64,000 nucleotides of DNA from Scytalidium lignicola (Eukaryota > Ascomycota > Leotiomycetes), in contig NCSJ02000069.1 in assembly GCA_002812745.2 (NCBI GenBank), positions 1-64,000 on the forward strand. The letters run 5' to 3'. The translations under genes and the position numbers were made by a program. Below, piece after piece: positions 59,684 to 62,968 of this stretch (positions are counted from its first letter, which is position 1; the number at the start of each line of letters is the position of its first letter). The notes below the pieces were generated by a model. The model saw only the letters and a list, made by a program, of their open reading frames with translations. It was not told the DNA's origin and searched no databases.

Positions 59684-60514
59684 ATGCCTTATATTACCAC
59701 CAGAGACAAAACCGAAATCTACTACAAAGACTGGGGCAATCCTAATGGGCAGCCAGTGGTGTTCTCACACGGATGGCCCTTAAACAGCGATAACTGGGAA
59801 AGTCAGATGTTTTTCTTGAGCAATCAAGGCTACCGTTGCATCGCACACGATCGCCGTGGTCATGGCCGTTCAGGCCAGCCATGGGATGGAAACAACATGG
59901 ACACCTACGCAGATGACCTTCACGAACTATTTGATCACCTTGATCTTAAAAATGCCATGATGGTGGGCCATTCAACAGGTGGTGGTGAAGTTGTTCGCTT
60001 CTTAGGACGGCATGGATCTTCCCGAGTCGCAAAAGCAGTCCTTGTTAGTGCTGTTCCTCCTGTCATGGTCAAGAAGGAGAGTAACCCAGGTGGAACACCA
60101 ATTGAGGTCTTTGATAGCTTCCGAACTGCGATGGAGAAAGATCGTGCTCAATTCTTCCTTGATGTTCCCACCGGACCATTCTTTGGCTTTAACCGTCCAG
60201 GTGCGAAGGCCAGTCAAGGCCTTATTCAGAGCTGGTGGTTACAGGGTATGCTCTGCGGATATAAAGCAGCATACGACTGCATAAAGGCATTCTCCGAAAC
60301 AGATATGACTGAGGACATGAAGAAGATTAATATTCCAGTCCTTCTTCTTCATGGTGATGATGATCAAGTTGTGCCGATTGGAGCCAGTGCCCATGAAGGG
60401 ATTAAGTTGCTCAAGCACGGTACATTGAAGGTTTATCCAGGAGGCCCTCATGCTTTGCCAAACATTTTCACAGATGAGGTGAATCAAGACCTGCTCAAAT
60501 TTCTCAAATCTTAA
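59684..60514 (+). CDS. Intronless alpha/beta hydrolase, non-heme haloperoxidase type
   Basis: A single exon encodes 276 residues opening [18 protein letters not shown]. The alpha/beta hydrolase core is complete: [17 protein letters not shown] with the oxyanion region, [38 protein letters not shown] (nucleophile serine in GHSTGG), HGDDDQVVP (acid), and GGPHAL (base histidine). This matches bacterial-type cofactor-free haloperoxidases/arylesterases, cytosolic enzymes that hydrolyse esters and can brominate in the presence of peroxide and acetate. Lack of introns and close likeness to bacterial family members hint at horizontal transfer, although such genes are widespread in fungi. It seems functional. 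Confidence 0.93.
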
Positions 60515-61175: not shown

Positions 61176-61313
61176 TTTTAGTTTATTTTCAAACATTAAC
61201 TATTATAATTTATATAATATATGTTTTATTATATTTGTTGTTTTGATGTAACAGAATTAAAATATTGTGATTTAATTAGAGGAGATTTATGTCTGGTCGA
61301 TTTTGTACGTTAC

Positions 61314-61560
61314 GTACGTAAGGGGGTGTCAGAAATGATTCGGCATCCCCCTGCAAGCGAAAAAGCCAATTAGATGCTCTACTTTATCTGAAATTCACGC
61401 TGCCTTAATACCTTCAAGCGATCACACCAGTTTAGATTCCTCATGCCATACAAAGTTTCTACAAAGCTATCCAAACAGCGTGAGAAAATCTCCTGATTAG
61501 GCCAAAAAAATGCTCGCTTGCAGGGGGATGCCGAATCATTTCTAACACCCCCTTACGTAC
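61314..61560. mobile_element. MITE with long inverted terminal arms, 247 bp
   Basis: Arms at 61314-61360 and 61514-61560 are inverted and match over about 47 bp with a single mismatch, starting GTACGTAAGGGGGTGT. TA/TAC words at both ends fit a TA target-site duplication, as for Tc1/mariner-type MITEs. The 150-bp interior is non-coding. It ends about 130 bases before the tRNA gene. Between them, AGTTCTCGCTTA is repeated in tandem near 61600-61630. Confidence 0.9.
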
Positions 61561-61688
61561 TTATGTAGAGAGCGTGTGCTCAGGCCAAGGAGAACCTTTA
61601 AGCAAAGTTCTCGCTTAAAGTTCTCGCTTAGAAGTAGACAAATCGTTTATGGCCGTATATGATTGAATAAGCAACTTCTCTCTCACAC

Positions 61689-61854
61689 GTCTTCGTGGCT
61701 CAGTGTAAGCACTTCCCACTTTTCGCCAAAAACCACCCCCAAAAACTAACTTTAAAAAGTGGTTAGAGCGTTGGTCTCATATAACAAACATATGAAAAGA
61801 TTGTTAACAGTCTTGGCCATCCAAAGGTCGTGAGTTCGAACCTCACCGAGGACA
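61689..61854 (+). tRNA. tRNA-Met(CAT) with anticodon intron and an extra intron-like insertion in the D-loop
   Basis: Exons 61689-61704, 61760-61781 and 61819-61854 fold into a canonical 74-nt elongator-type tRNA. The acceptor is GTCTTCG (61689-61695) against CGAGGAC (61847-61853). The D-stem is GCTC (61698-61701) against GAGC (61766-61769), the anticodon loop is CTCATAA, and the T-arm is GTGAG/CTCAC with TTCGAAC. The 37-nt gap at 61782-61818 lies after position 37, the standard nuclear tRNA intron site. The 55-nt gap at 61705-61759 lies in the D-loop and has GTAAGC at its start, ACTAAC at 61745-61750 and AG at its end. Removing it leaves AGTTGGTTA, a normal D-loop with its GG pair. Two T4 tracts follow at 61861-61869 as Pol III terminators. 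The insertion interrupts the end of the A box, so activity is uncertain. Confidence 0.88.
61705..61759 (+). other. Spliceosomal-type intron inside the tRNA D-loop
   Basis: 55 nt, the usual size of introns in this window, with 5' GTAAGC, branch-like ACTAAC whose second-last A is 10 nt from the 3' end, and 3' AAG. It is flanked by AGTG on both sides (61702-61705 and 61758-61761), which could be a target duplication. See the finding. Confidence 0.7.
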
Positions 61855-62968
61855 ACAAAGTTTTCTTTTATATTTTTGGTTTGCTTTGTCACATGCTTGA
61901 TTCCTAATCAATATTATTTTGTAGTCTACTGATGTGACTTTATATAGCCAAGAAGAGAATTTGTATTCAATTACAGCTTTACAGGGTAGATTTATTATTG
62001 GGAAGTTTTAACTTTTGTTCTTTAAAGTCGTCTCTAAACAAGTTGCGAAGTACTGTATGGAAGATTAGACGAGTTCATAAACATATTTCAGATCCGCACG
62101 ATCAGATTCATTAACTGTTAATGTTCCTTTTCTTATACGTTTCTGCAACTGCAAGACTGTCAAGAATTAATTCCAACATGGCATCTCTGACTGGCGACAC
62201 CTTCTAGGTCAATTGAAACCAATCATAATAACATGTTCACATAGGAGAAGCAAACCGCCCACGCAACATTGCTCCTTCCAACCGTGTACAATGAGGCATT
62301 TTGCCGCGATCCCTCAGCTCTATGATATCTACACCCTAGTTTGTACGTAGCCATCCTTTCATGCGGAGATAATGAAGCTCAAAGCAGTGAAGTCATATGA
62401 GCTCCTATCACCCGCCATGAGCAGTCGAAGGCTATCCGATACCAAATTGAATTACCCCGCATTATTGAACTTGCCGGTCGGTCTTGACTTAAGAAGCATC
62501 CTCTACGTATCTCCTGTTTGGATGAACATTGCTTCATGGTGTTCTGCGACTAGCACAGGTAGGGTTTGTGGCAATAATGTGTCACTCAAAGTAAGTGCAA
62601 CATCTGACGAGCTAAGCCGGCTTGCTCGGCTTGACTTGGATCATTTGAATTTACCCTATTGTTTGGTTCAATAATTGACAACCCATCATCGCAACCTAAT
62701 GCATTTCATGGCTAGAACCTCCAAACCTCGCTTTCCGGTTGGTGGAAGGCTGTGAACGAGGTGTGACAGGGCTGGCAATTATCTATCCCAAGTATTCAAG
62801 TATGCTTGGCTTTGTGATATCTCCAGGTTGACTCTCTTCAACAGCTGGTTTGTAAGCTGTAATATGTATTACAAATAACAACAATAACCAATTATCCGTT
62901 TAACCTCCAACGTATTATATTTCAAATATTCGCAATTATGTACTTCTTACAACACTAGTCTGCTATTC
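61855..62968. other. Intergenic region after the tRNA gene
   Basis: AT-rich; holds the tRNA terminator at its start. A 100-codon frame at 62372-62674 has no recognisable features and I do not call it. Confidence 0.5.

Follow-up and report, generated by a model that had tools for sequence, protein, structure and literature searches.

We found that the 55-nt insert in the D-loop of an elongator tRNA-Met (eMet) gene of Scytalidium lignicola is very probably a true spliceosomal intron of the U2 type within a working nuclear tRNA gene, and that it is not a lone case, since at least 16 such introns appear to be present in 15 or more of this fungus's tRNA genes. At the level of sequence, spliceosomal-type introns are confirmed as a recurrent feature of the tRNA genes of this genome, and removal of the inserts by the spliceosome is strongly implied. 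The inserts carry the signals of such introns at constant spacing, their excision restores the tRNA structure exactly, and the exons are conserved above the introns. Removal by the spliceosome, the order of the processing steps and transcription by RNA polymerase III (Pol III) are what we infer for these genes.

The eMet gene lies at positions 61689 to 61854 on the forward strand of the 64,000-nt stretch analyzed here (the window) and has three exons and two introns (all letters checked against the window). Exon 1 (61689-61704) holds the 5' strands of the acceptor stem and D-stem and the D-loop up to position 16. The 55-nt GT-AG intron (61705-61759), running from GTAAGC to AAAAAG, separates positions 16 and 17 and contains a branch-site-like CTAAC (61746-61750) that starts 14 nt from the intron end. 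Exon 2 (61760-61781) supplies the remaining D-arm and the 5' half of the anticodon arm, with the anticodon CAT at 61778-61780, and is followed by a 37-nt canonical anticodon-loop intron of the 37/38 type (61782-61818) in which GT-AG ends are absent. Exon 3 (61819-61854) comprises the 3' strand of the anticodon stem, the variable loop, the T-arm, the 3' acceptor strand and the discriminator A. As an earlier note on this DNA had proposed, the joined exons make a complete tRNA-Met of 74 nt with anticodon CAT (acceptor pairs 7/7, T-stem 5/5); exact removal of the insert does restore the D-loop (D-stem 4/4), and the ordinary anticodon intron described there is indeed present besides the D-loop intron. 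The anticodon stem has four of its five pairs, with one T-T mismatch.

Standard tools do not see this gene in its genomic form: neither ARAGORN nor Rfam at gathering scores gave a tRNA in the unspliced window. A custom covariance model, trained on 16 sequences that included the window tRNA-Met in spliced form, scored 61689-61854 at 52.7 bits and placed 60 inserted nt in the D-loop and 38 in the anticodon loop. When the gene was fully spliced, ARAGORN called tRNA-Met(cat), or SeC(tca) when a minimum intron of 1 nt was forced. Elsewhere in the window, a 253-nt MITE-like element (61311-61563), whose 50-nt terminal inverted repeats are 96% complementary, ends some 125 bp before the tRNA begins. 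In a protein comparison, the product of 59684-60511 had its closest named relative in Xylogone sp. PMI_703 (93% identical) and was 80-82% identical to proteins of Mollisia, Stipitochalara, Hyaloscypha and Cadophora, unnamed proteins ranking in between. Xylogone is classified within the Leotiomycetes as incertae sedis, so that this protein, too, probably points to a leotiomycete.

The inserts look like spliceosomal introns. All 16 start with GT and end with AG, the donors being GTAAGT (five), GTATGT and GTTAGT (three each), GTAAGC and GTGAGT (two each) and GTACGC (one); 13 of the 16 fit GT[AG]NG[CT], the exceptions being the three Ile introns with GTTAGT. A branch-site-like motif (CTAAY in 15, TTAAT in one) always starts 13-16 nt before the intron end, and the length is 48-58 nt in all but one, which measures 162 nt. 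A pattern demanding CTAAY was the means of finding five of the introns; 10 of the other 11 have the motif too. The 2,000 end-preserving shuffles averaged 0.27 introns with CTAAY at the observed spacing and never exceeded 2 of the 16, against 15 observed. The signals of the window insert also go beyond chance: segments of 48-58 nt with a GT[AG]NG[CT] donor, CTAAY and a nearby AG start at 43 of 536,558 positions on both strands of the sequence scanned, a figure that is an upper bound because real introns are counted in it.

For comparison, 36 introns of mRNA type were chosen from 800 clusters in the genome by consensus donor and branch. Nearly half of them (17/36) measure 49-58 nt (range 42-105), and the branch motif lies 14-22 nt from the end in 34/36. 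GTAAGT, GTAAGC, GTGAGT, GTATGT and GTACGC also start mRNA-type introns here; GTTAGT could not appear in this set because of its selection by donor and branch consensus. A stricter coding-score search for mRNA introns returned one candidate and nothing usable. AG is the usual pair of last exon bases at spliceosomal donors; it precedes none of the 16 tRNA inserts, which counts against the reading as spliceosomal introns.

A search of the 46.85-Mb assembly with the tRNA and its flanks gave, besides the window gene on contig C630, a second eMet gene on contig C244 (17445-17609), 81% identical over the tRNA only. Its D-loop intron occupies the same site and is a 58-nt counterpart with GTAAGC, CTAAC and AG, and its anticodon intron is unlike that of the window gene in sequence. 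The evidence favors the reading of the insert as a fungal spliceosomal-type intron put forward in the earlier note. Of the 74 exon positions, four are not shared by the two genes, and all four are in the T-arm; two of them face each other in a single T-stem pair, which reads T-A in one copy and C-G in the second. By reading, the two D-loop introns are nearly identical over their initial 19 nt. In the window gene, CCACTTTT and AAAAGTGG could base-pair with each other over the 3' splice site, and the corresponding pairing in C244 is shorter.

Several intact tRNA-Met genes elsewhere would have spoken for a dead copy, and they were looked for: only one other eMet gene was found, with the same intron, in searches that were not exhaustive. 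The search with the tRNA and its flanks, a 301-nt query, matched the genome only at the two eMet genes; the spliced window tRNA found C630 alone, its strict first step missing C244. The anticodon-arm 16-mer with up to three mismatches occurred at 222 places (265 for the reversed pattern) and gave no third eMet gene; about 100 of these places were listed and 20 read, and a tRNA body was present only at the two eMet genes. Nor did a 21-mer for an uninterrupted eMet D-arm, again with up to three mismatches, find such a gene, its three places (one in the control) all being Ile(AAT) genes. An intronless eMet gene could have been overlooked, since the tRNA census covered 63 of 2,176 candidates of the main search and the 16-mer places just given, and is incomplete. 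The covariance model recovered the C244 gene only in part (24.2 bits) and the Leu gene on C288 hardly at all (13.7 bits, E 0.16).

The 16 GT-AG inserts are distributed over 15 tRNA genes of nine isoacceptors (Met, Arg, Trp, Thr, Leu, Pro, Ile and two kinds of Ser) and ten positions from the D-loop through the T-loop, numbered here from the spliced sequences. Apart from the site between 16 and 17 in the two eMet genes, introns are found at 18/19 in Leu(TAA) (C288), 21/22 in Thr(AGT) (C125), 25/26 in Arg(TCT) (C129 and C555), 26/27 in Ile(AAT) (C142, C232 and C264), 27/28 in Trp(CCA) (C30), 32/33 in two Pro(AGG) genes on C636 and in the variable arm of Ser(GCT) (C621 and C499). The C499 gene (L183) has a second GT-AG intron at about 145-195, inside the T-loop (55/56), so that its B-box is split, and with its anticodon intron it carries three introns in one tRNA gene. 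In Ser(TGA) on C188 (L184), the 162-nt GT-AG intron lies inside the anticodon itself (35/36) and the canonical intron begins two bases after it.

Taking all searches together, 15 of 70 nuclear tRNA matches have GT-AG introns, and 10 of 65 when only the searches not asking for an intron are considered (the two Pro genes included); these are not genome-wide rates, because the main tRNA search disfavors long genes. The 70 matches are made up of 41 from the main search, two eMet genes, five from a CTAAY pattern, three from the D-arm 21-mer and 11, 4 and 4 from further searches. The main search scored 63 of 2,176 candidates and gave 55 matches, of which 14 on contig C648 were dropped as mitochondrial. 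All three Ile(AAT) genes found have a GT-AG intron, and many other tRNA genes, five for Gly and four for Val among them, lack one, absence among the other tRNAs of the main search being judged by eye. The CTAAY pattern search gave nine matches (five for the reversed pattern), of which five are intron-bearing tRNA genes and four (L081, L082, L084 and L086) are not. No full tRNA was present in 58 of 69 candidate regions by a test that requires the T-arm within 188 nt and could miss longer genes because of this distance limit. Also rejected as intron-bearing tRNAs were 11 of the 15 candidates of one further search, together with L185 and L190 (L191 was left out).

Two side observations were made during this census. 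No nuclear Phe or Tyr gene was recognized among the 13 places with a contiguous D-arm within three mismatches of TAGCTCAGTTGGTAGAGCG; introns may conceal the Phe, Tyr and Asp genes, or their D-arms may be of a different sequence. Contig C648 (L056-L058; 142,778 bp) carries, by reading, mitochondrial-type cox1, nad1, nad4 and atp6 at 20-30 kb, with tRNA matches as far as about 34 kb and nuclear-looking ORFs at 40-50 kb, and is either chimeric or a nuclear contig with a very large mitochondrial insert.

How would such a gene be expressed? We propose that it is transcribed, probably by Pol III, and that U1 and U2 would recognize GTAAGC and CTAAC in the precursor; the spliceosome would then take out the 55 nt as a lariat, restoring the D-loop, and the tRNA endonuclease and ligase would take out the separate anticodon intron as usual. 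The window gene has a contiguous GTTCGAACC at 61834-61842, which, going by the box consensus, we take to be the B-box of the internal Pol III promoter, and an A-box that is split by the D-loop intron. Downstream, T runs (T4, T4 and T5) at 61861-61877 resemble a Pol III terminator and may act as one. A rival reading, in which the introns are spliceosomal but the precursors are Pol II transcripts at least at some loci, seems to us improbable. The A-box is split in two of the 15 genes (both eMet), the B-box is split in Ser C499 and altered in Arg C555, and T4-T5 runs occur within five of the 16 introns, all of which may mean lower transcription or Pol II at some loci. On the other hand, each box is contiguous in 13 of the 15 genes, T runs follow the genes looked at, and the U6 RNA of fission yeast is, according to passages of PMC10484740, a Pol III transcript with an mRNA-type intron. 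T runs, which could stop Pol III, are not depleted in the inserts and in this respect give no sign of Pol III transcription (T5 in 3/16 inserts versus 3/36 mRNA-type introns; T4 or longer in 5/16 versus 10/36). Energy folding of the precursors did not recover the cloverleaf and was left unused.

The interrupted genes might instead be dead or silenced copies hit by intron-like sequence, with intact genes elsewhere supplying the tRNAs, one of the options in the earlier note. Relatives without a GT-AG intron do exist for Thr (L007), Trp (L045), Arg (L003) and Ser(TGA) (L005), the Arg gene on C555 looks decayed, and the split B-box of Ser C499 points the same way. However, when paralogues are compared, spliced exons are 86-100% identical and the inserts 56-80%: for exons and GT-AG introns respectively, 74/74 and 30/52, 73/74 and 32/50, and 73/74 and 32/52 in Ile, 72/72 and 45/56 in Pro, 70/74 and 44/58 in eMet, 69/72 and 38/55 in Arg, and 71/83 and 30/54 in Ser(GCT). 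The exons are thus more alike than the introns in seven of seven comparisons from five families (Fisher p 3.8e-3 to 1.3e-10), the three Ile comparisons among them not being independent. The T-stem change in eMet is compensatory; in the Ser(GCT) pair, by reading, the anticodon stem differs on both strands with pairing kept. Dead copies would also leave unexplained why both eMet and all three Ile(AAT) genes found have the intron, and why GT...AG is present in 16/16 inserts with CTAAY at a fixed spacing in 15/16. With exons kept better than introns and a compensatory change in eMet, silencing is a very poor explanation of these genes, and functional genes with spliceosomal introns remain the preferred reading.

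The spliced products are also recognizable as tRNAs in most cases. ARAGORN gave the right amino acid for one of the 15 genes in genomic form, for 12 when the GT-AG introns alone were removed, and for 12 when all introns were removed (one canonical boundary of Ser C499 being shifted by 2 nt for this test), with Trp C30 and Ser C621 undetermined and Arg C555 read as Lys; the canonical-intron boundaries of these failures may be misplaced by one or two bases. Spliced Thr(AGT) from C125 is identical to its intronless paralogue L007 (72/72), and the flanks of the two do not align at E 0.01, a neighboring Thr gene aside. Arg C555 has a D-stem deletion, a base change in the B-box and a changed anticodon, and is probably decayed, as judged from these lesions. 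Trp C30 has three of five anticodon-stem pairs with the boundaries used, and in a simple pair check the full D-stem was not reached in the Leu, Pro and Ser genes. Leu C288 has three of seven acceptor pairs with a start one base late, and a complete stem, by eye, with the preceding G. Overall, a cloverleaf, the conserved residues and selection on the spliced product are seen in most of the 15 genes, Arg C555 excepted and Trp C30 doubtful.

For canonical tRNA introns (37/38), removal is the work of the tRNA endonuclease and ligase, which read the tRNA structure (as passages of PMC4090602 explain). These introns resemble the GT-AG inserts in interrupting tRNA genes and requiring removal, and they differ from them in their ends, since none of the 12 canonical anticodon introns in these genes has both GT and AG. 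Could the same enzymes remove the inserts, as they would the non-canonical introns of Cyanidioschyzon, nucleomorphs and archaea? In the Guillardia nucleomorph and in Cyanidioschyzon merolae, tRNA introns do occur in the D-arm, T-arm and other non-canonical places, of 3-24 nt in the former and with bulge-helix-bulge structures in the latter (passages of PMC4090602), and 12 of our 15 genes carry a canonical anticodon intron as well. The full 4-bp bulge-helix-bulge center was present in none of eight GT-AG introns, but it was also absent from all four control anticodon introns, so that this result is weak and does not discriminate. A stronger point is that one does not expect endonuclease substrates to have GT...AG ends together with a constantly spaced branch motif, and none of the 12 canonical introns has both ends. 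The nucleomorph and C. merolae introns, although at non-canonical places as here, are not described as spliceosomal (again in passages of PMC4090602). We therefore regard endonuclease removal as highly unlikely and retain removal by the spliceosome.

New introns can also arise from introner-like elements, which multiply into related copies. A shared mobile source of this kind, described in fungi as a source of new spliceosomal introns (in part of PMC4457414) and matching the earlier note's suggestion of an introner-like element, is not supported, since the tRNA introns of the four other isotypes compared share no pairwise similarity and the eMet query matches only the two eMet genes.

With spliceosomal introns in functional genes as the preferred explanation, a broader reading seems to us reasonably likely, namely, that the spliceosome has become an obligatory tRNA-processing machine in this lineage. 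Essential eMet and Ile(AAT) would exist only as genes with spliceosomal introns, and translation would therefore depend on the spliceosome acting on precursors that are probably Pol III transcripts. The introns would have been gained repeatedly at many positions, even within the Ser(TGA) anticodon and the Ser(GCT) B-box, and tRNA finders would have missed them. Confirmation would place spliceosomal splicing within the maturation of tRNA in a fungus, with one short precursor worked on by two splicing machineries, and would mean that the tRNA annotation of such genomes misses or misnames essential tRNAs, as the single correct genomic call by ARAGORN illustrates. The Thr genes of C125 and L007, identical except that one has the intron and the other lacks it, make a very clear record of how an intron is gained or lost, in a setting where each base of the exons can be judged for function.

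In reviews, tRNA splicing is treated as separate from the spliceosome (passages of PMC13149111 and PMC4090602). Among the titles and abstracts that searches of the open-licence literature returned, none described a spliceosomal intron in a tRNA gene, a scope outside which most subscription papers lie, and within it the earlier note's view that such a class is not described in fungi holds. Within this genome, no intron was evident in three U6 matches (two over the cut-off; 98-113 nt for 105 positions; 47 of 3,539 candidates scored) or in 28 5S genes over the cut-off (47 of 1,751 candidates scored). The nearest precedents are the introns of ascomycete rDNA and of fission-yeast U6. Bhattacharya and colleagues reportedly described, in 2000, spliceosomal introns in the nuclear rDNA of ascomycetes; these are likewise spliceosomal-type introns in structural RNA genes, although they interrupt rRNA genes transcribed by Pol I and not tRNA genes. 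U6 genes with mRNA-type introns have also been reported from some basidiomycete yeasts. In Schizosaccharomyces pombe, the U6 snRNA gene has an mRNA-type intron near the catalytic bases that is thought to come from reverse splicing (according to passages of PMC10484740). As proposed for the genes described here, this fungal gene combines a short non-coding product, transcription by Pol III and an intron of the spliceosomal type; however, the fission-yeast case concerns, in those same passages, one RNA that is itself a component of the spliceosome, whereas in S. lignicola many tRNA genes are interrupted at many positions.
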